Origin: an uncultured Selenomonadaceae bacterium
Lineage (GTDB): Bacteria; Bacillota; Negativicutes; Selenomonadales; Selenomonadaceae
DNA length: 10,632 nucleotides
NCBI GenBank assembly: GCA_905236785.1
Contig: CAJOQC010000089.1
Span: 1 to 10,632 of the forward strand
Reading direction: 5' to 3'
Positions 1-10,632 of this stretch are shown here, piece by piece (position 1 is the stretch's first letter; each line of letters opens with the position of its first letter). Below the pieces are notes generated by a model. It saw only the letters and a list, made by a program, of their open reading frames with translations. It was not told the origin of the DNA and made no database searches. Both the position numbers and the translations under genes were made by a program.

Positions 1-98
1 GAGGAATGACGCAGTACGCGTGCCCTTCAGGGTATGCCGGAAAAAGACCCGGCAAGGGTGCGGACGAATTATGCAGTGTTTCCCTAAACAAAGAGTAA
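1..98 (+). CDS. C-terminal tail of an unidentified upstream protein (partial)
   Basis: Reading from base 3, the frame is open from the window edge to a TAA at 96-98, giving about 31 codons that end in ...SLNKE. The next gene's ATG lies only 5 nt further on, the spacing expected inside an operon. That spacing is the main reason to treat this as a gene end. The visible peptide is rich in Gly, Lys and Cys and shows no motif I recognise, so no function is offered. Another + strand frame is also open here and could be read as an N-terminal extension of the following gene, but that would bury its signal peptide. Confidence 0.4.
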   Translation, partial: GMTQYACPSGYAGKRPGKGADELCSVSLNKE

Positions 99-103
99 AC
101 AAA

Positions 104-1201
104 ATGAAAAGAAAATTACTGCTTATTTGTTCTCTGCTGTGGTATCACATCAGCAATTTGTGTTTTCCCGCCGTCGCCAGCACGTCGGAACAACTAAACG
201 CGAATATGTCCCCCGTTGAGGGTCAAGCCGTAGATTTTATTAAAGCGCGGCTTGCCGACAAAAACGGTCTTATCCTAAACGCTGTGGAATTTGACCGACC
301 GTCAAAGACTGCCCTTAGCGAATCCGCCGGGCAGATTATGCTCTATGCGGCACGGCTCGACGACGACTTGTTGTGGCGTTTATATCGGCCGTCGGCAGAA
401 AAATACTTTTGGCAAAACGGTTTTTATGCTTGGCGGGTAAACTCCGACACCCTTGCCCCCGACACCGTGAGCGCGCTTATCGACGATTTGCGCCTGGCAA
501 AAGCGTATATGACGATGAACAAAAATCATGTCGGCGAATATGATGATAAAATTGCCGCCGTTTCAACGGGACTTTTGACCAAAAGCGTTGACGGGGGGCA
601 TGGCAACATCAGCGACTTTTACGATTTGGAATCGGGGGCGGCCGACCATGTGTCCCTGTTTTATCTTGATATCGAAACAATGGACGAATTGACGGCTTAC
701 GACCGACGCTGGCAGAGAGTGAAAGACAACTGCACGAAAATTTTGCGCGATATGCCGGAAAACGAACAAGGCTTTTTCCCAAAAGCATATTATTTTTCTG
801 CCGGGAAATACGAGCGCAAAGAAGAAACAGTTACGGTAGAAAATCTTTATACTGCCATATTCGCCCAAAAAGCCGGGCGGAACACGAAAAAATTTGCCGA
901 ATTTCTGCGCAAAGAATTGACAAAGGGCAAGATAGCCAATCGCTACTTCGCCGACGGCCGCCCATCCCTAAGCCATGACAGCGTGGCGGTATATGCCCTG
1001 GCGGCGCGATACTTTTTGTATGTCGGCGACAAAACAGCCGCAAAGACAGCCTACGATAAAATGATGACATTCTTCATCGAAGACGGACGTTTGGCGGGGG
1101 GCTTTGGTTACAAATTGCCGGCTACGGTGTACGCTTTTGACCAACTGGAAGCCCTCCTCACCATAAACGAAACCAAAGGGGAATTATCGGCGGGAAAATA
1201 A
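104..1201 (+). CDS. Secreted GH8-like (alpha/alpha)6-barrel glycosidase
   Basis: The 365-aa product begins with a signal peptide: MKRK, a hydrophobic core of Leu/Ile, then an AVA signal-peptidase-I site at residues 23-25. This fixes the start at the ATG of 104 rather than the in-frame GTG at 20 or ATG at 71. The mature part resembles glycoside hydrolase family 8 and its Bacillota relatives in exopolysaccharide operons. A Ser-Glu-Ser turn (Glu73, the expected position of the general acid) is followed by a Gly and a Leu-Tyr-Ala helix. An aromatic Phe-Tyr-Ala-Trp stretch follows, then SALIDDLRLAKA with Asp127-Asp128. The C-terminus has repeated helical hairpins and a Tyr-Ala-Phe-Asp-Gln-Leu helix. 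It probably trims a surface or secreted beta-linked polysaccharide outside the membrane. The gene follows an upstream gene by 5 nt and converges with the glycosylation operon. Family assignment comes from motif reading only, and the substrate is unknown. Confidence 0.6.
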   Translation: MKRKLLLICSLLWYHISNLCFPAVASTSEQLNANMSPVEGQAVDFIKARLADKNGLILNAVEFDRPSKTALSESAGQIMLYAARLDDDLLWRLYRPSAEKYFWQNGFYAWRVNSDTLAPDTVSALIDDLRLAKAYMTMNKNHVGEYDDKIAAVSTGLLTKSVDGGHGNISDFYDLESGAADHVSLFYLDIETMDELTAYDRRWQRVKDNCTKILRDMPENEQGFFPKAYYFSAGKYERKEETVTVENLYTAIFAQKAGRNTKKFAEFLRKELTKGKIANRYFADGRPSLSHDSVAVYALAARYFLYVGDKTAAKTAYDKMMTFFIEDGRLAGGFGYKLPATVYAFDQLEALLTINETKGELSAGK

Positions 1202-1223
1202 TAATTGCGGCAAATTTTGTCGG

Positions 1224-2651
1224 CTATCCAATGATTTCTTTATACCGCCGTTCAAGCTCCTTCATATATCCGTCCCCATCCAAAAGCGGCGAAGCTTGAA
1301 GGATATTTCGCAATTTAACGCGCAAATTTTTTAACCGTTCCTTGTCTTTGGCCAAATCTGTGGCCTTTTGAACATATTCTTCGGGGGTTGCGGCCGCAAA
1401 CTCAGAAAGCCCCGCGCTTTTAAGAATACTTGAGCCAAAACGCGCCCCGTACCTGTCGCCGCAAAGCGTCACCGCAGGCACGCCCATATAAAGCGCAACA
1501 GCCGTCATTGCGCCGCCGTTATAGGGCGCAGGATTAAGCATGATGTCAACTTCCCCGTAATGCTCCCAATAATCCTCGGCGGCGGGGCGAATTTCAACAA
1601 CATCGGCGGGAATGTTCGCTTTTATTACGCGGCTTTTCATGGCGCAAAGCCGCGCCGATATGTCCGTCGTATCCTGCAATATAAGTTTGCTGTCCGGCGT
1701 TTGGCGCAAAATCTCCCGCCACAGAGCCAACATTTCGTCGGTGATTTTCATAAAATTGTTGAAACAACCAAAAACCACCCTTTGATGCTCTTGGGGCATA
1801 GGCGCAATTTGTTGCATTTCGTCGGTGGGGGAAAAGCAAAAGGCATGGGGCAACAAAAGAACATTTTCCGTGAAATAATCTTTGCTCCCGTTGTCGAACA
1901 AAACATGGTCGCCCAAGACATAATCAACAAAATCCGCCCCGGTGGTGTCAAAATAGCCGATGCCCGTGATGCAGACTTTGGCGGGGCGGCGCGACGCGAC
2001 GAGCAAAGTTCGCCCGCCTGCGCTATGCCCGCCCAAATCGAACAAAATATCAATGCCGTCCGCGTTTATTTTTTTGGCGGCTTCTTCATAGTCGGCGGGC
2101 AAAAAGACAAATTTATCCGTGCTGTTTTTCATTCGCCGCGAAAAATTGTCCTCCGCTTCCTCAAGAGAATAGCAATAAACCTCAAATTCGTCGCGATTGT
2201 AACGGGTGAGCATCACATCAAAGAACAACGCCGCCGCCTGAAAAAGAAAATTAACCGCCAAGTAACCTACGCGAATTTTCTTCGCGCAGGTTTTTTTTGC
2301 GGTCGGCAAAACCGCCGCGCCGTCGAAAAATCCGCCGTAAAAACAATGTTCGCGAAACAGAGCGGCTTTGTCCACGCCATGCAAATAGTGAAGGGCGAAA
2401 AGATAATTTGAAAAATGCTGGCATTGAGCCGACAAATAGCGGTCATGTTTGGCGGCGTTAAGATAGGCGGCGGCAGCTCCCTCCGCATCCGCCGTGCAAA
2501 AGAACAATTCGCCGAAAAGCTCATGCACTCGCCACAAATCCCTTTCGTCGGCGGTATCTTTTAGAATTTTCAGTTCGTTTCTTGCCGCCGCTGTTTGCCC
2601 GGCTTTTAACAGGCGGCGAATATGGTTTAACTTTTCGTCGATGTTATTCAT
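1224..2651 (-). CDS. GT41 (O-GlcNAc-transferase-like) protein with degenerate donor site
   Basis: The protein has 475 aa: a short helical TPR-like N-terminus (about 1-100), then a GT41 domain (about 124-475). Family hallmarks kept include the DILFDLGGHS segment (His209), GYFDTTG (232-238), the FGCFNNFMK segment with Lys302 (equivalent to human OGT Lys842), and the C-terminal SPLLD and Leu-Glu-Arg region. Several residues expected to handle the nucleotide sugar are lost. The SPDxRxH motif reads AVNFLFQ, with Gln138 where the family has His (human OGT His498). The GGGTTxDALYMG motif reads NGGAMTAVALYMG, with Val385 where Asp is expected (human OGT Asp925). Alignment with the two GT41 domains of the upstream gene is ungapped here, so this is substitution and not frameshift. 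It may be a non-catalytic partner or have altered specificity. The ATG overlaps the upstream stop by 8 nt (ATGAATAA), preceded by GGGTAGGG. The same frame is open upstream to 3092 but lies antisense-free inside the previous gene, so that extension is not real. Confidence 0.88.
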   Translation of the reverse strand: MNNIDEKLNHIRRLLKAGQTAAARNELKILKDTADERDLWRVHELFGELFFCTADAEGAAAAYLNAAKHDRYLSAQCQHFSNYLFALHYLHGVDKAALFREHCFYGGFFDGAAVLPTAKKTCAKKIRVGYLAVNFLFQAAALFFDVMLTRYNRDEFEVYCYSLEEAEDNFSRRMKNSTDKFVFLPADYEEAAKKINADGIDILFDLGGHSAGGRTLLVASRRPAKVCITGIGYFDTTGADFVDYVLGDHVLFDNGSKDYFTENVLLLPHAFCFSPTDEMQQIAPMPQEHQRVVFGCFNNFMKITDEMLALWREILRQTPDSKLILQDTTDISARLCAMKSRVIKANIPADVVEIRPAAEDYWEHYGEVDIMLNPAPYNGGAMTAVALYMGVPAVTLCGDRYGARFGSSILKSAGLSEFAAATPEEYVQKATDLAKDKERLKNLRVKLRNILQASPLLDGDGYMKELERRYKEIIG

Positions 2652-5600
2652 AATCCCTACCCAAAATTTGCAAATACTCCCGCTCCAAATTCCTTGTATA
2701 GTTTTTTGGCGACAGGGCGGGGGAATTTTGCAATATTCCCCGCAAATTTTTGTGCAACACGTCCAAAAGTTCGGCATCATTGGCAAGGGCAACAGCCTTT
2801 TCAACGTAACTGTCCGCGCTGTCGGCGGCAAGCTCCGAAAGTCCTGCGGCATCAAGAACTGAAAGGCCAAAACGACTGCTGCGCCTTTGCCCGTAGCGAG
2901 AAACCACCGGCACCCCCATGTAAAGCGCGTCAAAGGTTGTGCCTCCCCCGGTGTACGGGTAGGTGTCAAGGGCAATATCGACGTCAAGGTAGCGGGGCAA
3001 ATATTCCTCCTCGGCTCCTTCAAACACAATACGGTCGGTGTCGAAACCAAATTTTTGCAAACGTTCGTAGGCCATATCCGCCGCCCTGTCATCGCCCAAA
3101 ATCGCCGACTTTAGGAGAAGATACGAGTTTGGCGTAAGCTCCATGATTTTTTGCCAACAACAAAGCATCTCATCGGTGATTTTTCGATAATGGTTGAACA
3201 CGCCAAAGGTAACATAGCCCCGCCCAAGGCAAGGCGCGCCCTTTGACACCGGCACGTCGTTCCTGCCGACGTAGGAAAATTGACATGGCAAGTACAGCGG
3301 CTTTTCCGTCAAAAATCTCTCGCTCCCCGGCGGGTTCACGATTTTGTCGGTGATTAAATAATCCACTGCGCCAAGCCCTGTGGTGTCAAGATAACCAAGG
3401 CCGGAAATTTGAACGGGCGCGGGGCGGTACGCCAGCACCGGCAACGAGCCGCCCGAGCTGTGCCCCGCCAAATCGACCAATATGTCAAGTCCGTCGTCGT
3501 AAATTTTCTTGGCAAGTTCTTCTATAGATAAACTCGGCACATGATAAAAATGTTCGGCGAAAGTTTTAAGATGCGCCGTGAAGCCGTCCTCAATTTCCCC
3601 GGTGTAATAACAAAAAAGCTCAAATTTATTGCTGTCGTGGCAAGATAAAAGGCCGTAGATGAAATTAAACATGACATGGCGGCGAAAATCCGGCGATATG
3701 TAGCCGATTTTTATTTTTCGCCCGCCGATTTTTGCTCCTTTGCGTCGGTTAAATTTTGGCGTGTCGGCAAAAATTTTGTCGTAGCCCCTGTGCAGGTCAA
3801 AAAGTTCTTCGGCGGTTATGTTCGTGGTCTGCGCCGCCAAAAGCATGGAATCGTACATAACGGAGCGGATATACTTTGTTCCTTCCACCTCATAGGCGGC
3901 GCGATACATTGCCACAGCTTCGGCGGTTTTGCCGATTTTTAGAGCCGTTGCGGCGATGCGGCAGAGAATATCCCGCCAATCTATGGCGTTTGGCAAGCCG
4001 TTTTTCTCGTACAGTTCCTTGGCTTTTTTCAGTGCTTCGTATTCGTTGACCGTCTCGCCCCTGTCGCGATATTTGTCCGCCAAGGCGACATATTCGTCGG
4101 CAGCGGGGGGCTTTGCGGGCAAAGGGGGGGTGTGGGCGGTTTTTCCATATAGCCACTTGGCAAAAATTTCTTCGTACAGAGTTTCAAGCTCCGCCATGTA
4201 AAGATTTTCGTCCATAAGGGGGGATTGCCTTATTTTGCGGCGCAAGGTCTGATGATAACGGGCGAGGCGCTCTTTGTCCCGCGCCAGGTTCGTAGCCTTT
4301 TCGATGTATTCGTCAACGGAGGCGGCGCAAAGTTCCCCCAAGCCCACATTCATCAAAATGCCGTACCCGAAGCGCGAGTTGTGCCGCTCCCCGACAAGGG
4401 TTATCACCGGCACGCCCATGTAAAGAGCATCGCAGGTTGTGCCGCCGCCGGGGTAGGGGAATGTGTCAAGGGCAATATCTATTTTGTTGTATTTATCAAG
4501 ATAATTGCGTTCAAAACCGTCAAGGGTAACTCGCTCGGCCAAGATGCCGAATTTTTCGAGCCGCTCCAAAGTTCTGTTGCAGTCTTCTTCGTTGTCAAAT
4601 ATTCGCGTTTTTAGGTACAGGCGCGAATGAGGGACGGCGGCAAGAATTTTGCTCCACGCCGCTAAAACTTCGTCGCCGACTTTGGCAAAATTGTTGAAAC
4701 TGCCGAAGGTGACAAAATTATTTTTTAGGCACGGCGTACCATTAAAGGGATAATAGGCATGATTCCACGAAAAGCAAAAATGGCTGTGGGGCATACGAAG
4801 GAGTTTTTCGACAAAAAATTCATCGTTAAGCCCCACGGGGTCGGTGTAATGATCCGCCAAAAAATAATCGACGGCCGAAAGCCCCGTCGTATCAAAATAC
4901 CCCACGCCGGATATTTGCACCGGCGCGGGTTTGTAGGCAAGCACCGCCAAACAACCGTTTGAAGTATGCCCCGACAAATCAAACAAAATATCAATCTCGT
5001 CCTTATGCACCATGGCCGCCGCATCTTGGGGGGGCAGGTCTTTTATGTTTTGCCATTTGTGGGCGACGGCGGCAAATTCGCGGCTTGTTGCGTCCTCATC
5101 CCCCGCCATGTAAGCGTAAATTTCAAAGCGGTTTTTGTCGTATGCAAAAAAGAAGGCGCGGCTGAAAAAACCTGCAACGTGCCTTCTTAAATCCGGCGAT
5201 ATGTAGCCGATTCTTATTTTTTCATGCCGCCTTTTCCGCTGGTGGGCAAAGGGGCGGATACGGACAAAAAAATCGGCGTATTTTTTGGCGGCGGCGCAAA
5301 GTTCCGCCCGGGATGCATCGGTGTAATGAAGGTTCAAAAGATAATTGCCGTAATCTTCGCGGCGCATCTTTTCCATGTCAACGGGGGCGGCGGGGTCGCT
5401 TTTTATCCGTGAGGAGGACAGATAGGCCTGCGCCGCCGCCTGTAACTGCCCTGTTTCACGATAGAGCCTGCCCAAAATGTTATAGGTCATCATTCGTTGC
5501 CAGGGGGCTAAATCCGCGCAAGTTAAGGCCTTGTTTGCGGCGTTTATGGCTTTAGTGCGCTTTTTTTGCAGGTGCAATGTTCGCGCCGTCAAAAAATAAA

Positions 5601-5829
5601 AATAACCGTCGCGGCCGAAGTTTTTTTCCGCCTGTTTTAGCGCCGACGCCGCCCCCTGCGGCAGATTATTGTCAATGTAAAGGGTGGCCACGGCGCAAAG
5701 GACGGCTTTACTTGCCGCGTCGGCAAATTCGAGCAATTTGTCGGCGGCGGCTACGGCGGCGGCTACGTCTTTTTTTTCGTAAGCGTCCGCCATTTTTTGA
5801 TAGAGTTCCTTTGCCGCCGAAGTTTTCAT
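2644..5829 (-). CDS. Double-headed GT41 glycosyltransferase (two tandem OGT/SPINDLY-like domains)
   Basis: The protein has 1061 aa. Order: TPR-like helices (about 1-190), GT41 domain 1 (about 204-556), a Pro-rich linker (about 564-577), a second helical/TPR stretch (about 578-690), GT41 domain 2 (about 705-1058). Both catalytic domains are complete: SPDLRRH (His217) and SPDFRRH (His718); DLSGHTS (His288) and DLAGHSS (His790); GYFDTTGL and GYLDTTGL; FNNFAK (Lys383) and FNHYRK (Lys883); GGGTTCDALYMG (Asp467) and GGGTTFDALYMG (Asp967). Equivalent residues are almost exactly 500 apart, pointing to an internal duplication of a TPR + GT41 unit. GT41 enzymes transfer a sugar, typically GlcNAc or a hexose, from a nucleotide donor to Ser/Thr (or Asn in HMW1C-type members) in the cytoplasm. 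Beside a flagellin gene, flagellin is the likely acceptor. The start overlaps the upstream stop (ATGA), with GGGAG 6 nt before the ATG. Donor and acceptor are not shown by the sequence. Confidence 0.93.
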   Translation of the reverse strand: MKTSAAKELYQKMADAYEKKDVAAAVAAADKLLEFADAASKAVLCAVATLYIDNNLPQGAASALKQAEKNFGRDGYFYFLTARTLHLQKKRTKAINAANKALTCADLAPWQRMMTYNILGRLYRETGQLQAAAQAYLSSSRIKSDPAAPVDMEKMRREDYGNYLLNLHYTDASRAELCAAAKKYADFFVRIRPFAHQRKRRHEKIRIGYISPDLRRHVAGFFSRAFFFAYDKNRFEIYAYMAGDEDATSREFAAVAHKWQNIKDLPPQDAAAMVHKDEIDILFDLSGHTSNGCLAVLAYKPAPVQISGVGYFDTTGLSAVDYFLADHYTDPVGLNDEFFVEKLLRMPHSHFCFSWNHAYYPFNGTPCLKNNFVTFGSFNNFAKVGDEVLAAWSKILAAVPHSRLYLKTRIFDNEEDCNRTLERLEKFGILAERVTLDGFERNYLDKYNKIDIALDTFPYPGGGTTCDALYMGVPVITLVGERHNSRFGYGILMNVGLGELCAASVDEYIEKATNLARDKERLARYHQTLRRKIRQSPLMDENLYMAELETLYEEIFAKWLYGKTAHTPPLPAKPPAADEYVALADKYRDRGETVNEYEALKKAKELYEKNGLPNAIDWRDILCRIAATALKIGKTAEAVAMYRAAYEVEGTKYIRSVMYDSMLLAAQTTNITAEELFDLHRGYDKIFADTPKFNRRKGAKIGGRKIKIGYISPDFRRHVMFNFIYGLLSCHDSNKFELFCYYTGEIEDGFTAHLKTFAEHFYHVPSLSIEELAKKIYDDGLDILVDLAGHSSGGSLPVLAYRPAPVQISGLGYLDTTGLGAVDYLITDKIVNPPGSERFLTEKPLYLPCQFSYVGRNDVPVSKGAPCLGRGYVTFGVFNHYRKITDEMLCCWQKIMELTPNSYLLLKSAILGDDRAADMAYERLQKFGFDTDRIVFEGAEEEYLPRYLDVDIALDTYPYTGGGTTFDALYMGVPVVSRYGQRRSSRFGLSVLDAAGLSELAADSADSYVEKAVALANDAELLDVLHKNLRGILQNSPALSPKNYTRNLEREYLQILGRDYE
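2656..3717 (-). repeat. GT41 catalytic domain, copy 2 of an intragenic duplication
   Basis: Codons about 705-1058 of the same protein form the second GT41 unit, with His718, His790, Lys883, GGGTT at 961-965 and Asp967 all intact. It is preceded by its own helical TPR-like stretch, so the repeated unit appears to be TPR plus catalytic domain and not the catalytic domain alone. Boundaries are approximate. Confidence 0.75.
4162..5220 (-). repeat. GT41 catalytic domain, copy 1 of an intragenic duplication
   Basis: Codons about 204-556 of the 1061-aa protein form one complete GT41 unit. It matches copy 2 in motif order and spacing: His217, His288, Lys383, GGGTT at 461-465 and Asp467 lie 500 to 502 residues before their counterparts. 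The copies have diverged strongly in protein sequence, so this is an old duplication and not a recent DNA repeat. Boundaries are approximate. Confidence 0.75.
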
Positions 5830-6329
5830 GTCGCGCTCCCTTTATGCCAATCGACCACGCTTAAAAGCTGTTTCATGTTGTATTCTTCCACCAAAAATGT
5901 CACTACATTGGGGTAAAAGGCCACCAAATACTTGTTTTGCTTGGCGTAATACATCAAAATGTCTTCCATTTCGTCCCGGTCGTCCTGGGTCAGCTTGTCG
6001 CGGTATTTTTCCACAATGTAATCATAGAGATTTAACGCCTCCGGCACACGGTTATTTAGGATAAAATGCCGCGCCAGCAGGAGCCTTGCCCCGATATGCC
6101 CCGGATCAAAGTCCAAGGTTAGGTTTATCCATTTTACCGAACGCTCGAAATCGCCGAGTTGAAAGTAATTCTTTGCGCCGGAGAACATGACTTCCGCGTC
6201 GCGGCAACCCATGTTTATAAGCTCCGACAATACTTCCAAAGCCTTGGCGGGTTCATTTATATCTTCCAAATATTTCATTCTGCGTTTTAGGGCATCCGCT
6301 TGCACGCCTTTTTTGTATATCATAAACAT
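5826..6329 (-). CDS. Small TPR protein of the glycosylation operon
   Basis: The 167-aa product is entirely helical in appearance, with TPR-type repeats. One covers roughly residues 44-77, with Phe-Gln-Leu-Gly-Asp-Phe-Glu-Arg-Ser and Asp-Phe-Asp-Pro at its end; another covers roughly 78-111, with Arg-Val-Pro-Glu-Ala. There is no signal peptide, membrane segment or catalytic motif. It may be an adaptor or scaffold bringing the glycosyltransferases to their protein acceptor, which is inference from position. The start is ambiguous. The ATG at 6329 gives a TGATG junction with the upstream gene, the GTG at 6332 gives a GTGA overlap, and an ATG at 6323 is also in frame. None has a well-spaced Shine-Dalgarno (GGAG lies 17 nt before the 6329 ATG), so translation probably depends on coupling. 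The stop overlaps the next start by 4 nt. Confidence 0.8.
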   Translation of the reverse strand: MFMIYKKGVQADALKRRMKYLEDINEPAKALEVLSELINMGCRDAEVMFSGAKNYFQLGDFERSVKWINLTLDFDPGHIGARLLLARHFILNNRVPEALNLYDYIVEKYRDKLTQDDRDEMEDILMYYAKQNKYLVAFYPNVVTFLVEEYNMKQLLSVVDWHKGSAT

Positions 6330-6625
6330 CACGTCGAACGCATAAACTCCAAAATGTGCGGGTATGCCGTCATTCGTTTGGCCGAACGGGTCACAAAGTA
6401 CTCCATTTCCCCCCGCAAAATTTCCCTGTCCGCTTCAAACATATCGGGCTTTATTGCCAAAAATCTTTCTGCGGCCTCAATGCCCTCCGCCGCTTGACCT
6501 GCATCCAACAGGGCTTTTATGTTTTTAATGACATTGTGCGCCTTGCCGGCTTGGTCTTGTTCGTGCTTTTGCTCCGCCTTGGCCTTTATCGAGGCAAAGG
6601 CGGATTTTTTTAATTTCTTTGCCAT
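6329..6625 (-). CDS. 98-aa Lys-rich TPR-like protein of the glycosylation operon
   Basis: The 98-aa product has a basic N-terminus (MAKKLKK... with further Lys to residue 20), then a helix-turn-helix pair around residues 31-62 resembling a single TPR (AGQAAEGIEAAERFLAIKP). A short tail ends Phe-Met-Arg-Ser-Thr. A well-placed GAGGGA ribosome-binding site precedes the ATG, and only 4 nt separate it from the stop of the upstream glycosyltransferase gene, so it is very likely translated. I do not recognise a named family. Together with the next gene it could amount to one roughly 265-aa TPR protein made as two chains. It could equally be an independent small chaperone or adaptor. No enzymatic residues are visible. 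Confidence 0.75.
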   Translation of the reverse strand: MAKKLKKSAFASIKAKAEQKHEQDQAGKAHNVIKNIKALLDAGQAAEGIEAAERFLAIKPDMFEADREILRGEMEYFVTRSAKRMTAYPHILEFMRST

Positions 6626-6629
6626 GTTT

Positions 6630-7562
6630 TTATCCCTCTGTCGCCGCGACTGTTACCCTCGCCGCGCTTTCAATCATCGCCATGTAGCGTTGCCACACTG
6701 CGCTCGTTGCCGCTTCCTTGTAAACGTACATTTTTTTCTTATATTCCTCGACCATTACGGACAAAAAATGTTTATAATCATCCTCGGTATAAGGGAAAAC
6801 TTTTCTTTCAAAATACTCTTTGTTAATTTCGTACCATTCTATGCGGCTTAGAATTACCACGTCGATGCCTTGGCCTTCCTGCTCTTCGTGTCGGCGAAAG
6901 AAACTCAAGGCATCCCTAAATATGGCAAGAGAGCCTTTTTCCAAAAGTTCCAACCACATAACGACATCCGATATGGTACGATAGCCCTTACATTCGGCCT
7001 GCCAATAATGGTGTCGCAAATCCTTGCGGCGGAACAAGGTGGCCGAAGGTTCGCCGATAATGTTGGCGGCGTTTCTCAGCATTTTCCACGCGATAAACTC
7101 CGACGGATAAATGCTGTATTCCTCTTTAACGGGAAAATCCGCAGGATACCATGCGACAATGTGCCCGTCCTTGTCGATAACCTGCCGCTGGCTTGAAACC
7201 AAAGCTACCTCGGAATTTTTTTTGAGGACGTTCACCATTTTGGTCAACTTCGCGGGGTGCAGCATATCGTCGTCCATGAGCCATTGCAGATATTCGCCAT
7301 GCGCCAAATTTTCAAAGGGCATAAAATTTTCCGCTTTGGTTTTGGCTTCGCGGTTGCGAATGTATGTGAGCCGTTTGTCGGCAAGATATTTTTTAATGAG
7401 CTGTTCGGTTTCGTCGTTGGTGCTGTTGTCGCAAACAATTATTTCAATATGCTTATAATCCTGGCTAAGGGCGGACAACAACGCCTGTTCAAACATAATC
7501 GGCCTGTTGTAGGTCGGTATCATTATGCTGACCAAATTTTTCCTTGTTACCGCTCTTACCAT
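6630..7562 (-). CDS. Family 2 (GT-A fold) glycosyltransferase
   Basis: The 310-aa product opens with a GT2 nucleotide-binding strand, VSIMIPTYNRP (11-21), then IIVCDNSTNDET with Asp45, and the metal/donor motif WLMDDDMLHP with Asp97-Asp99. A later Gly-Glu-Pro-Ser-Ala-Thr-Leu-Phe-Arg-Arg stretch and a Ser-Asp-x-x-Met-Trp-Leu-Glu-Leu-Leu segment correspond to the acceptor half of the fold. A Phe-Phe-Arg-Arg-His segment follows. It is soluble, with no membrane helices, which fits a cytoplasmic enzyme. It may extend a glycan begun by the protein-directed GTs of the operon, or modify flagellin directly; the sequence does not decide. I chose the ATG at 7562, with AGGCGG upstream. A GTG two codons earlier (7568) is an equally in-frame alternative. 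It follows the upstream gene by 22 nt and precedes the next by 4 nt. Confidence 0.9.
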   Translation of the reverse strand: MVRAVTRKNLVSIMIPTYNRPIMFEQALLSALSQDYKHIEIIVCDNSTNDETEQLIKKYLADKRLTYIRNREAKTKAENFMPFENLAHGEYLQWLMDDDMLHPAKLTKMVNVLKKNSEVALVSSQRQVIDKDGHIVAWYPADFPVKEEYSIYPSEFIAWKMLRNAANIIGEPSATLFRRKDLRHHYWQAECKGYRTISDVVMWLELLEKGSLAIFRDALSFFRRHEEQEGQGIDVVILSRIEWYEINKEYFERKVFPYTEDDYKHFLSVMVEEYKKKMYVYKEAATSAVWQRYMAMIESAARVTVAATEG

Positions 7563-7584
7563 GCTCACCGCCTGCCTTTGTCGA

Positions 7585-9531
7585 TTATTTTTCGCACCAC
7601 TTCAAGTAAGTGGGCAATTCGTCGTTTGTTGCGCCTTTTTCCTTGGCGCGGGCAAAAAACGCCGCCGCCGTTTCGTGTTGGTCGGTCTTAAAAAGGGCAA
7701 CCCCAATCTTAAAGAGAACATCCCCCGTCAGCAATTCACTGTCGTCCGGGATTTGGGTGTAAAAGGTCAATGCCTCCAAGTAGCGGTCGTATTTATAAAG
7801 TTCCTCCGCCGCCGCAGCGCATCGCTTGGGCAAAAAATCGCAGCCCATTAGGACAAAACGGCTAATCATTGCGACCGAACCGTAATTAAGCACCTCGATT
7901 AAAAGCGTGTGATACGCATCAAAATCGCTGTCCGCCAATGGTTCGATGCCGCCATGGTATTTTAGCAAACAGTTTTGCATCCCTGCGGGCAACAAGGCCA
8001 TTTTCCCGGCGGTTTCGGCAAATTCATTAAGGCTCATCATCATGATTGTCAAGGCCAACTCGCGCATACATTTTACTGTTTGCACCATGAGCCTTGAGGC
8101 GGGGCGCGCAGTTTTCGCCGCCGACGCCGGGTCGTTTTTCCAAAAGGCGGGCAACATTTTCTCCCAGGCGGGGCGGTCTTTGCCGTCTAAATAATACCGC
8201 ATACCTTCGGCAAAGCAAATTGCCAACCCTTCGGCGGCCTTTTGGGCGGCGGCGTTATACTTTCTTTCGCCGATAAGATACTCATAGGAGCCTTTTGGGG
8301 GTTGCATATAGAAAAAATACACGGCATCCCTGGGGCGCTTCTTCAAAAATGGGCGCAGATAATCGGCATCCTTTTTGAAATCATAAATTTTTTGCAAAAA
8401 CTTCAGCGTTTTTTTCGCGTCCTTGTCACGGGTCATCTTCAGATATTCCCGCAAAACGGCGTTGGTATGGGGGAAATCCTTCAGCACTCCCTCTAAATAC
8501 TTTGCCGCCTCGTCGTATTTTCCTTGCATCTGCCGACACCCCGCCAAAGCGGACATGATGCCCGGCATATCCGACAACGCCGTTGACTCGTAAATCTTGG
8601 AAAAATTCGGGTCTTTGAGCTTTTCTAAGATACGCAAAACATTTTCTTCCACATGGGCAAAATCCTTGCGCCTTACGGCAAGTTGCGCGTCCTCCCACAG
8701 AAAATCCGGGAAACCGGGTATGTCCGCCAAGGCGCGGTCTACTATTTTTTGCAAGGTTTCGTCGCTTGCGTTTCGCCCCCGTTCGGCCTTTAGCAAAATG
8801 CGATACTGTTTCACATAGGCCTGTATAAGGCCGCCGGTTTTTGTTTCAATGGCCAAGTTTGCGTAATGAATGGCCTTGTCGTACTCTTTGAGGTTAAGAT
8901 AGGTCGTTGAAAGATAGGTATAATGTTCGGGCTTTTCGCCGCCCGCCGCTTTTATGTCCTCCAACAGCAATTCTAAATTACGCCGATTTTTCTTTTCCGT
9001 CAGGCTTGTGGAGTAGCCGGTGTGAAAAATCGTCAAATCGCTGTCCAATATCTGCCATTGCCCCTTAGGGAAGGCCAAGCTTTCATGTATTCGCCCCCGA
9101 TAGCCGAGGTCGGGGCGATTGCGGAAAATTCGCGTTTGGGTGGTGGTGCTTATGACATGGTTGTTGTTGTCCATGTCGATGTTATGCAAGGGGCTGTCAA
9201 CTGCGATTAAGTTTTTGTATTTATGGACTTTCTCCAAGGTTTTGCGAAGTTTTTTTTGCGCGTCCTTAGAAAAATACTCGTCGGCATCAAGAAAAACAAT
9301 CCAATCCCCCACGGCTTTCCTAAGAGCGTAATTTTTCGCCGCCGAAAAACTGTTTTGCCATGGGAACTCGTAGACCGCCGCGCCGTTGGCTTTGGCAATC
9401 TCCATTGTCTTGTCCTCCGAGCCGGTGTCAACGACAATCATCTCGTTTACGATGCTTTTTATATTCTTCAGCCAGTTTTCGATATTGTGTTCTTCGTTCT
9501 TCACGATGACGCAAGCCGATATTTTTATCAT
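7585..9531 (-). CDS. GmaR/SunS-like GT2-TPR protein glycosyltransferase, probably acting on flagellin
   Basis: The 648-aa product has an N-terminal GT2 domain (about 1-175): SACVIVKNEEHNIENW (5-20), IVVDTGSEDKT (Asp35), FPWQNSFSAAKNYAL and the DADE motif at 82-85, then a Arg-Ile-His-Glu segment (His149, Glu150) and His170-Thr-Gly-Tyr. TPR-like helices follow from about 200 to the end, clear ones near 202-229, 324-354 and 576-635. This architecture and length resemble Listeria GmaR, which O-GlcNAcylates flagellin, and the GT2 of SunS, a peptide glycosyltransferase. It is therefore probably a cytoplasmic protein glycosyltransferase acting on Ser/Thr (or Cys). As first gene of the operon, divergent from flagellin, its likely acceptor is flagellin. 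GmaR also antagonises a repressor; nothing here shows that role. The ATG is preceded by GGAGG at an 11-nt spacing and a strong promoter at 9570-9598. Confidence 0.9.
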   Translation of the reverse strand: MIKISACVIVKNEEHNIENWLKNIKSIVNEMIVVDTGSEDKTMEIAKANGAAVYEFPWQNSFSAAKNYALRKAVGDWIVFLDADEYFSKDAQKKLRKTLEKVHKYKNLIAVDSPLHNIDMDNNNHVISTTTQTRIFRNRPDLGYRGRIHESLAFPKGQWQILDSDLTIFHTGYSTSLTEKKNRRNLELLLEDIKAAGGEKPEHYTYLSTTYLNLKEYDKAIHYANLAIETKTGGLIQAYVKQYRILLKAERGRNASDETLQKIVDRALADIPGFPDFLWEDAQLAVRRKDFAHVEENVLRILEKLKDPNFSKIYESTALSDMPGIMSALAGCRQMQGKYDEAAKYLEGVLKDFPHTNAVLREYLKMTRDKDAKKTLKFLQKIYDFKKDADYLRPFLKKRPRDAVYFFYMQPPKGSYEYLIGERKYNAAAQKAAEGLAICFAEGMRYYLDGKDRPAWEKMLPAFWKNDPASAAKTARPASRLMVQTVKCMRELALTIMMMSLNEFAETAGKMALLPAGMQNCLLKYHGGIEPLADSDFDAYHTLLIEVLNYGSVAMISRFVLMGCDFLPKRCAAAAEELYKYDRYLEALTFYTQIPDDSELLTGDVLFKIGVALFKTDQHETAAAFFARAKEKGATNDELPTYLKWCEK

Positions 9532-9674: not shown

Positions 9675-9784
9675 GTAATTGCAAGCAAAATTACAACTAC
9701 CCCGCAGGAGGCATCGGAAAAGGACTTCCTCCGGCATAATCATGGATGTATGTCAGTCAACTTTAAGGAAGGGTTGTGGCTAAT
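9675..9784 (+). promoter_or_regulatory. Structured flagellin mRNA leader with GGA motifs (CsrA-like sites)
   Basis: The untranslated leader holds an inverted repeat GTAATT/AATTAC (9675-9694) and a possible GGAGG/CCTCC stem (9707-9711 with 9728-9732). A hairpin GGCATA/TATGTC (9733-9738 with 9749-9754, one G-U pair) shows CATGGATG in its 10-nt loop. Bases 9738-9749 match 9 of 12 positions of the CsrA selected consensus RUACARGGAUGU. The Shine-Dalgarno AAGGAAGGG (9765-9773) supplies a second GGA about 23 nt downstream. Hairpin GGA plus GGA in the ribosome site is the layout CsrA uses to repress flagellin translation in Bacillus. No csrA or fliW gene is visible in the window. Confidence 0.4.
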
Positions 9785-10632
9785 ATGTCGGTTAAAATTC
9801 GCAACAATACGGGCGTTATGTCGGCCTTGGGGCGGCTTAACAAGAACAACAACGCCGTGGGGAAAGCTCTTAGGATAGTGGCCGCCGGGCAAAAAATCGT
9901 TGGCGTGGGGGATGCGGCAAGCGATTATGCCATAAGCGAAAAGATGCGCGCCCAGCTTCGCTCCATCAACCAACAAATTCAAAACGTGCAAAACGGCGCA
10001 TCCCTCCTAAAGGTTGCCGCCGGCGGCATCGACGACATCACCGACGAACTTCGCAACCTGAAGGAAATTGCCATCGCCGCCGCCAACGACACCAACACCG
10101 ACAGCGACAGGCGCACCCTCCAGAAGGTTTTTAACCAAAAAACCGCCAACATAAACGACATAGCATCAACCACCAACTACAACGGCAAAAAACTCCTTGA
10201 CGGCAGCCTTCGCGCCTATATAGAGGGTGACGGCGAGACTTTGGTGACGCAATTTGTGTCCTCCTCTAATTCCAAAACCCTCACCGAATCCACCGCCACA
10301 TCGTCAAACACAACGGAAATTCTCAGCAACAACGTCACCGACCTTGGCACAAAAGAGGTTCCAAAAACCACCGTCACACTTGAACCCCCAAACCCCGTCA
10401 CCGTGGAAGGCACACATATTCCCGGCGACGTGCCGGTGGGGCATTACATAGGCGAGCGGATAACGACGACTACGCCCATTCATGTGGAGGAAGACTACAC
10501 CCAAGTGGGCGACGTCACCTCCACGGACGAAGTTATCAGCGAACACACCGAGGTAGTCCCCGTCAGCAGTGTAACATCTTCCACCGGCAATATGCATAGA
10601 ACAGAAAGCACGGATTACCTGTCGGAAGAAAC
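9785..10632 (+). CDS. fliC: Flagellin, N-terminal part (runs off the window)
   Basis: The frame is open from the ATG at 9785 to the end of the window, 282 codons. Residues 1-140 are the conserved flagellin D0/D1 helices: Leu-Asn-Lys-Asn near 18-21, SDYAISEKMRAQLRSINQQI, then IQNVQNGASLLKVA, a LKEIAIAAANDTNTDSDRR segment, and NYNGKKLLDG. From about 141 the sequence turns Ser/Thr-rich (44 of 142 residues by hand count) and beta-like, the expected surface-exposed D2/D3 region and a plausible O-glycosylation target. The C-terminal D0/D1 half lies outside the window. The start fits the usual flagellin N-terminal length. A GTG at 9776 in the same frame is closer to the AAGGAAGGG site and would add three residues. 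The gene is driven by a sigma-28-like promoter and divergent from the glycosyltransferase operon. Confidence 0.93.
   Translation, partial: MSVKIRNNTGVMSALGRLNKNNNAVGKALRIVAAGQKIVGVGDAASDYAISEKMRAQLRSINQQIQNVQNGASLLKVAAGGIDDITDELRNLKEIAIAAANDTNTDSDRRTLQKVFNQKTANINDIASTTNYNGKKLLDGSLRAYIEGDGETLVTQFVSSSNSKTLTESTATSSNTTEILSNNVTDLGTKEVPKTTVTLEPPNPVTVEGTHIPGDVPVGHYIGERITTTTPIHVEEDYTQVGDVTSTDEVISEHTEVVPVSSVTSSTGNMHRTESTDYLSEE

Follow-up and report, generated by a model that had tools for sequence, protein, structure and literature searches.

The stretch of DNA analysed here (the window; 10,632 bases, an entire contig from a draft assembly, totalling 1.65 Mb in 282 contigs at 79% completeness, of an uncultured Selenomonadaceae bacterium) encodes, at 2644-5829 on the minus strand, a tandem protein of 1061 amino acids that carries two glycosyltransferase modules of family GT41 on one chain. 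We propose, with a probability of about 0.62, that this protein is a two-headed cytoplasmic flagellin O-glycosyltransferase whose heads have specialised; we infer its substrate, its donor, the activity of each head, and the division of labour between them. The gene is a single uninterrupted frame with zero internal stops, and its membership of GT41 is clear: the Pfam family PF13844 matches it at E 1.9e-90 (304 bits, against a cut-off of 25) in four stretches, with the model aligning as two pieces within each module.

A first reading made from the letters alone (the sequence-only reading) had described two complete GT41 domains repeated at a 500-residue period, and this description stands. Residues 196-560 and 698-1061 share 44% identity across an alignment of 356 columns (E 4e-107), and direct repeats in the DNA of the gene are spaced 1500-1506 bases apart. 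Module 1 (residues 199-559; 4153-5235, minus strand) and module 2 (residues 700-1059; 2653-3732, minus strand) score 547 and 502 bits, respectively, with a module hidden Markov model (HMM), and with these two near-full modules the protein departs from the single-domain GT41 pattern of one catalytic domain per chain, an architecture that it shares with relatives. The same reading had made the repeating unit a tetratricopeptide repeat (TPR) array plus a GT41 domain; the GT41 part holds, whereas the TPR part is weak, consisting of a TPR_16 match at residues 48-106 that stays under its Pfam cut-off (23.7 bits, against 32.7), no Pfam TPR stretch reported in the second linker, and helices in the predicted model. 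The NCBIfam model NF049992 (UDP-glucose:protein N-beta-glucosyltransferase, HMW1C-like) scored 49.1 bits, below its cut-off of 1000, and none of the five window proteins submitted to NCBIfam had a family above cut-off.

The predicted model of the tandem protein, built from 14 sequences (predicted local distance difference test score, pLDDT, 78.4; predicted template modelling score, pTM, 0.61), shows helical stretches preceding each of two alpha/beta modules, with (i) ten helices in the N-terminal TPR-like region at residues 2-188 (5266-5826, minus strand) and (ii) seven in the inter-module linker at residues 576-686 (3772-4104, minus strand). The pLDDT falls below 50 at residues 324-349 and in parts of 827-849, and, with a pTM of 0.61, the relative placement of the two heads is not relied on. 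The fold of the modules is OGT/SPY-like, as judged from the model and from Foldseek, whose top match was Arabidopsis SPINDLY (SPY; 8dtg, E 2e-28), followed by Thermobaculum OGT, human and fly OGT, and Xanthomonas XcOGT; SPINDLY is also the closest solved structure by sequence (7y4i, E 1.5e-80).

Both modules keep the donor-site residues that the sequence-only reading had pointed to, as the motif table and the alignment confirm: a histidine (H217 in module 1 and H718 in module 2), a lysine (K383 and K883), a pair of threonines (T464-T465 and T964-T965), and an aspartate (D467 and D967). In a sequence alignment with SPY, the His and Lys columns of both modules correspond to H495 and K665, and SPY mutants H495A and H495F, as well as mutants of K665, are inactive (PMC9715652; here and below, statements from cited papers rest on parts of their texts). 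Going by these residues, both modules are apparently catalytically active.

Multi-module GT41 proteins are common in the window's family, and the idea that the architecture is unusual is not supported. Two homologue sets were examined, both of them drawn with a tandem query and giving no estimate of tandem frequency. The first comprises the best 120 of 1701 matches among candidates whose length was between 0.55 and 1.75 times that of the query, some of them from Selenomonas ruminantium or uncultured Selenomonas; every one of these 120 contains two or more near-full modules (three in 103 and two in 17). The second, the named loci, comprises the best 80 of 353, obtained with an alignment of two-module proteins plus the catalytic-motif patterns TTCDALYM and DT[FYW]PYPGG, and 79 of the 80 have a frame of at least two near-full modules (74 two, five three), the sources being Selenomonas, Anaerovibrio, Pectinatus, Mitsuokella, Quinella, one Megamonas, one Veillonellaceae, and otherwise Selenomonadaceae or Selenomonadales. 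Module matches covering 250 model positions or fewer were left out of the counts of intact modules and of the 77-module tree, both given below. At the level of genomes, a two-module profile matched at E 1e-50 or better in 144 of a sample of 151 members of the family, and in at least 77 of these 144 a single match spans more than 900 of the 1118 model positions, by a hand count of rows that includes six with a stop inside the match and does not include the window's own match, which is split in two. Three of the 199 genomes in a sample of the phylum matched at 1e-20, namely the genome of the window and two others from its family. At least two class members of other families, G048 and G052, hold two-module frames (loci L037 and L055, respectively), the former at 1-3010 (minus strand) and truncated by the contig end.

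Variants of the arrangement were seen among these loci. L051 holds four consecutive two-module GT41 frames of 933-959 amino acids (2177-13443, plus strand), in each of which the first module is degenerate and the second better kept, with N at the His column in one. L124 has a GT2 domain ahead of two GT41 modules in one frame of 1437 amino acids (8960-13273, plus strand), two genes from flagellin; by length alone, comparable frames occur in many relatives.

The two heads have long been separate. In a tree of 77 modules (from the window, 26 of the 80 named loci, and seven G000/G001 loci), a branch with support 96/80 separates all 28 first modules from 28 of the 30 last modules. The exceptions are the last modules of L134 and L147 and the middle modules of L117 and L127, which group with the first modules; a third middle module, that of L130, groups with the last modules, and single-module GT41 genes fall on both sides of the branch. 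The window's module 1 pairs with module 1 of a same-genus genome (98/96), its module 2 pairs with module 2 of that genome (100/95), and constraining the window's two modules to be sisters costs 183 log units (approximately unbiased, AU, test, p-AU 2.9e-42). The tree and the AU test together rule out a recent local duplication, and the divergence between the copies, remarked on from the sequence, is old. By their place in the tree, first and last modules are separate old lineages across the family, and the doubling appears to be older than the split of these genera, unless modules passed between them by transfer. A more recent internal duplication appears in the three-module protein of L130 (9605-14512, plus strand; S. 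ruminantium ATCC 12561): its second and third modules pair in the tree, and its first module carries S in place of the His.

We compared the 28 first modules with 28 last modules, leaving out the last modules of L134 and L147, which fall among the first modules, and found seven columns that are position-specific at 70% or more on both sides. These include H350/Q850, which distinguishes 28 of 28 first modules from 25 of 28 last modules, and F381/Y881, two residues ahead of the lysine. A separate specificity of the two heads is plausible from their tree position and these seven columns. In the mechanism that we favour, the helical TPR-like stretches would hold flagellin prior to export, as FlmG suggests, and each GT41 head would move a sugar from a nucleotide-sugar donor onto a Ser or Thr of flagellin. 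The heads are old paralogues, each keeping to its own position and differing from the other by drift at a handful of columns, and so would most likely serve different acceptor sites (or use different donors).

The tree and the columns also bear on the possibility that the heads have identical specificity and that the tandem is a covalent dimer, boosting local activity on a Ser/Thr-rich flagellin. Both heads share the same core residues, SPY is dimeric in solution (PMC9715652), and the window's flagellin is indeed rich in Ser and Thr past residue 150 (32%, against 11% before it). However, the two head positions remain distinct throughout the family and carry residues of their own, and relatives hold two or three modules rather than a fixed even number, which makes a covalent dimer unlikely in our judgement. 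Separate sites or donors for each head seem, on indirect evidence, more likely than either a covalent dimer or the sequential assembly of a disaccharide. The sequence-only reading had raised processive action on neighbouring acceptor sites, two different sugars in sequence, and a built-in dimer as possible uses of the two sites.

A division into one catalytic head and one scaffold head in the window protein is another arrangement that we hold to be unlikely. Relatives often have one decayed module, and the third GT41 gene of the window has itself decayed; yet all five donor-site columns are kept in both window modules, and both modules are intact in 12 of the 17 two-module homologues among the best 120 of 1701. 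Each of those 120 homologues has at least one intact module (74 homologues keep all of their modules intact and eight keep just a single one), and in the 103 three-module members the first, middle, and last modules are not intact in 15, 21, and eight, respectively, where "not intact" includes mild departures (T to S) and so does not equal inactive. The named loci have an intact first module in 76 of 79, with two of the three exceptions being cut frames, an excess that is biased because the search used catalytic-motif patterns. In a quick tree of 81 last modules, 18 are classed as lost and eight as partial, and the lost state must have arisen through no fewer than four changes, of which starred branches force three. 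A rule that the first head is always better conserved was considered and dropped, as first and middle modules decay in other sets and several frames have a degenerate first module in a motif count made after L038 (a shorter piece of the L061 stretch) had been dropped.

The link to flagellin begins in the window, where the flagellin neighbour named by the sequence-only reading is confirmed by a PF00669 match (E 3.7e-25) in a plus-strand frame at 9776-10630 that runs off the contig. A gap of 244 bases separates its start from the divergently oriented minus-strand run that includes the tandem gene, measured to the run's first gene. In relatives, whose fetched stretches reach at most 10 kb each way and are often cut by a contig end, a flagellin-N homologue lies within the stretch at 20 of the 79 multi-module named loci and at 12 of a further 38 loci from the first set, some genomes being common to both sets. 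Flagellin_N is found in 145 of the 151 family genomes, and the GT41 profile matches at E 1e-50 or better in 144 of these 145, against none of the six without flagellin (G007, G010, G022, G035, G255, and G273), a count that is uncorrected for kinship, in which the six represent three genera and a match is not necessarily a tandem. A smaller set of relatives gave 32 of 32 with flagellin and none of four without. The enlarged test strengthens the flagellin link and is silent on the division of labour; our confidence in the proposal is therefore unchanged by it.

These limits of the count weigh against the proposed enzyme, as do several other observations: (i) flagellin is absent from the fetched stretch at 59 of the 79 multi-module named loci; (ii) G283 is the sole one of the 145 flagellin-bearing family genomes without a GT41 match at 1e-50; (iii) outside the family the link is loose, with flagellin in 18 and a GT41 match at 1e-3 in 11 of 23 class members; (iv) G048, likewise from beyond the family, carries a two-module frame but gave no flagellin match; (v) no nucleotide-sugar biosynthesis gene was noticed among the Pfam-scanned window proteins; (vi) single heads decay in relatives, with an intact last module in 53 of the 79 named loci but not in the other 26; and (vii) the equivalent of SPY Thr748 is glycine in both modules (Gly463 in module 1, counted on the alignment, and Gly963 in module 2), and a T748A change lowers SPY activity (PMC9715652), so that retention of the motif is no proof of activity. 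G283 carries the same genus code (g5) as the Pectinatus genomes.

Points (i) and (iv) would also suit a different substrate, another surface or cytoplasmic protein, with flagellin a chance neighbour. Against this stand the contrast within the family between genomes with and without flagellin and the repeated linkage, and we consider a different substrate rather unlikely; the neighbours of L103 and L096, which have no flagellin nearby, offered no common alternative substrate among ten proteins. Sequential assembly, in which one head would add the first sugar to a Ser or Thr and the other a second sugar onto it, strikes us as improbable: a GT41 relative of the HMW1C type acts on an adhesin bearing mono- and di-hexoses (PMC3012730), and the heads do form separate lineages, but their core residues are alike and the adjoining GT2 enzymes could perform the extension. 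An assembly artefact fusing two genes, which the sequence-only reading had raised and which the window's being a whole contig of a 282-contig draft might invite, is excluded for practical purposes by the same architecture in independent genomes, among them isolates of Selenomonas, Anaerovibrio, and Pectinatus.

The specialised two-headed enzyme that we propose lies within a closely spaced minus-strand run that comprises, in order, a GT2-TPR gene, a GT2 gene, two small genes, the tandem GT41 gene, and a single GT41 gene. The first encodes 648 amino acids (7585-9531; Pfam scan, with homologues in relatives) and the second 312 (6630-7568; Pfam scan), and these neighbouring enzymes would extend or diversify the glycan. 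The frame at 6329-6625 encodes a 98-residue protein without a family match, whose homologue was found, among the relatives' stretches searched, only in the same-genus genome (L039). The next, at 5826-6332, encodes a small protein of 168 residues with TPR similarity (its best Pfam match is just below the cut-off) and has homologues in the GT41 stretches of many relatives. The single GT41 gene that ends the run, the third GT41 domain of the window (1224-2651, minus strand; 475 amino acids), has an ATG that overlaps the tandem's stop and was assigned by Pfam, the module HMM, the motif table, and its place in a clade of single GT41 genes. Its module is 40% and 41% identical to the two modules of the tandem, it has Q, K, M, T, V where the tandem's modules have the donor-site residues H, K, T, T, D, and it belongs to a starred clade (100/99) that comprises seven single GT41 genes, with a long branch (1.24). 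An N replaces the H in four of 17 single GT41 genes, three of the four belonging to this clade. Having lost several donor-site residues, the third gene is probably inactive, and its degenerate product is a candidate for a non-catalytic GT41 partner of the tandem, which is probably its role in the proposed mechanism. Apart from this run, a 364-residue frame with a hydrophobic N-terminus (107-1201, plus strand) had no Pfam or NCBIfam match and no homologue in the relatives' stretches searched.

On a wider and tentative view, which we think possible but doubtful, Selenomonadaceae would hold modular poly-GT41 flagellin glycosyltransferases, with two or three heads per chain as well as single-head genes that overlap them. 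Every position would then be an old lineage of its own, selecting its own acceptor or donor, heads would repeatedly have turned non-catalytic, and one chain would write an ordered multi-sugar pattern on flagellin. The proteins described here add a multi-headed form to the OGT/SPINDLY family. Cultured Selenomonas, Anaerovibrio, and Pectinatus are natural test cases for the division of labour among GT41 sites on one chain, and the intact and decayed heads of relatives are ready comparisons of catalysis and scaffolding.

Several elements of this proposal have known counterparts. FlmG of Caulobacter crescentus has a comparable plan, a TPR-containing N-terminal domain joined to a glycosyltransferase domain, and works in the cytoplasm on flagellins, which it binds through the TPR-containing domain; FlmG is both necessary and sufficient for modifying them (PMC7591256). 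It differs in having one glycosyltransferase domain and a pseudaminic acid donor, the comparison being one of description, and that text makes no mention of "GT41". GT41 enzymes of the SPINDLY type also occur in enterobacterial flagellin glycosylation islands, but most of these are described as carrying methyltransferase domains as well, and several GT41 domains per chain go unmentioned in the portion of the source at hand (PMC4875605). A survey of Clostridium lists TPR-bearing glycosyltransferase candidates for flagellin (PMC13317340), and in a Quinella genome GT41 appears among the surface-sugar enzymes (PMC9585023), as far as these texts go. The sequence-only reading had allowed that tandem GT41 proteins might be common and already characterised; they are common in the family, but a literature search on tandem or multiple GT41 domains and on flagellin glycosylation in Selenomonas and Pectinatus, covering mostly papers outside subscription and those in part, did not find this architecture described. 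What is already known, within that literature, is therefore the TPR-glycosyltransferase flagellin enzyme (FlmG) and GT41 in flagellin islands, and several GT41 heads per chain are the variant not found described there.

Among solved structures, Arabidopsis SPINDLY, a GT41 protein O-fucosyltransferase, is nearest in the PDB by both sequence and fold, and is comparable in its TPR helices, against TPR-like helices here, and in having a GT41 domain with the His and Lys at H495 and K665; it differs in having one catalytic domain and Thr748 where the window modules have Gly. Thermobaculum terrenum OGT and Xanthomonas XcOGT, bacterial members of GT41 whose structures have been solved, match by sequence and fold, but their chains are of 529 and 568 residues, and each is matched by one module only. 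LARGE1, which lies outside GT41, produces a polymer of xylose and glucuronic acid. It nonetheless offers, in the part of the source drawn on, the functional precedent of two transferase activities on one chain (PMC9746966).
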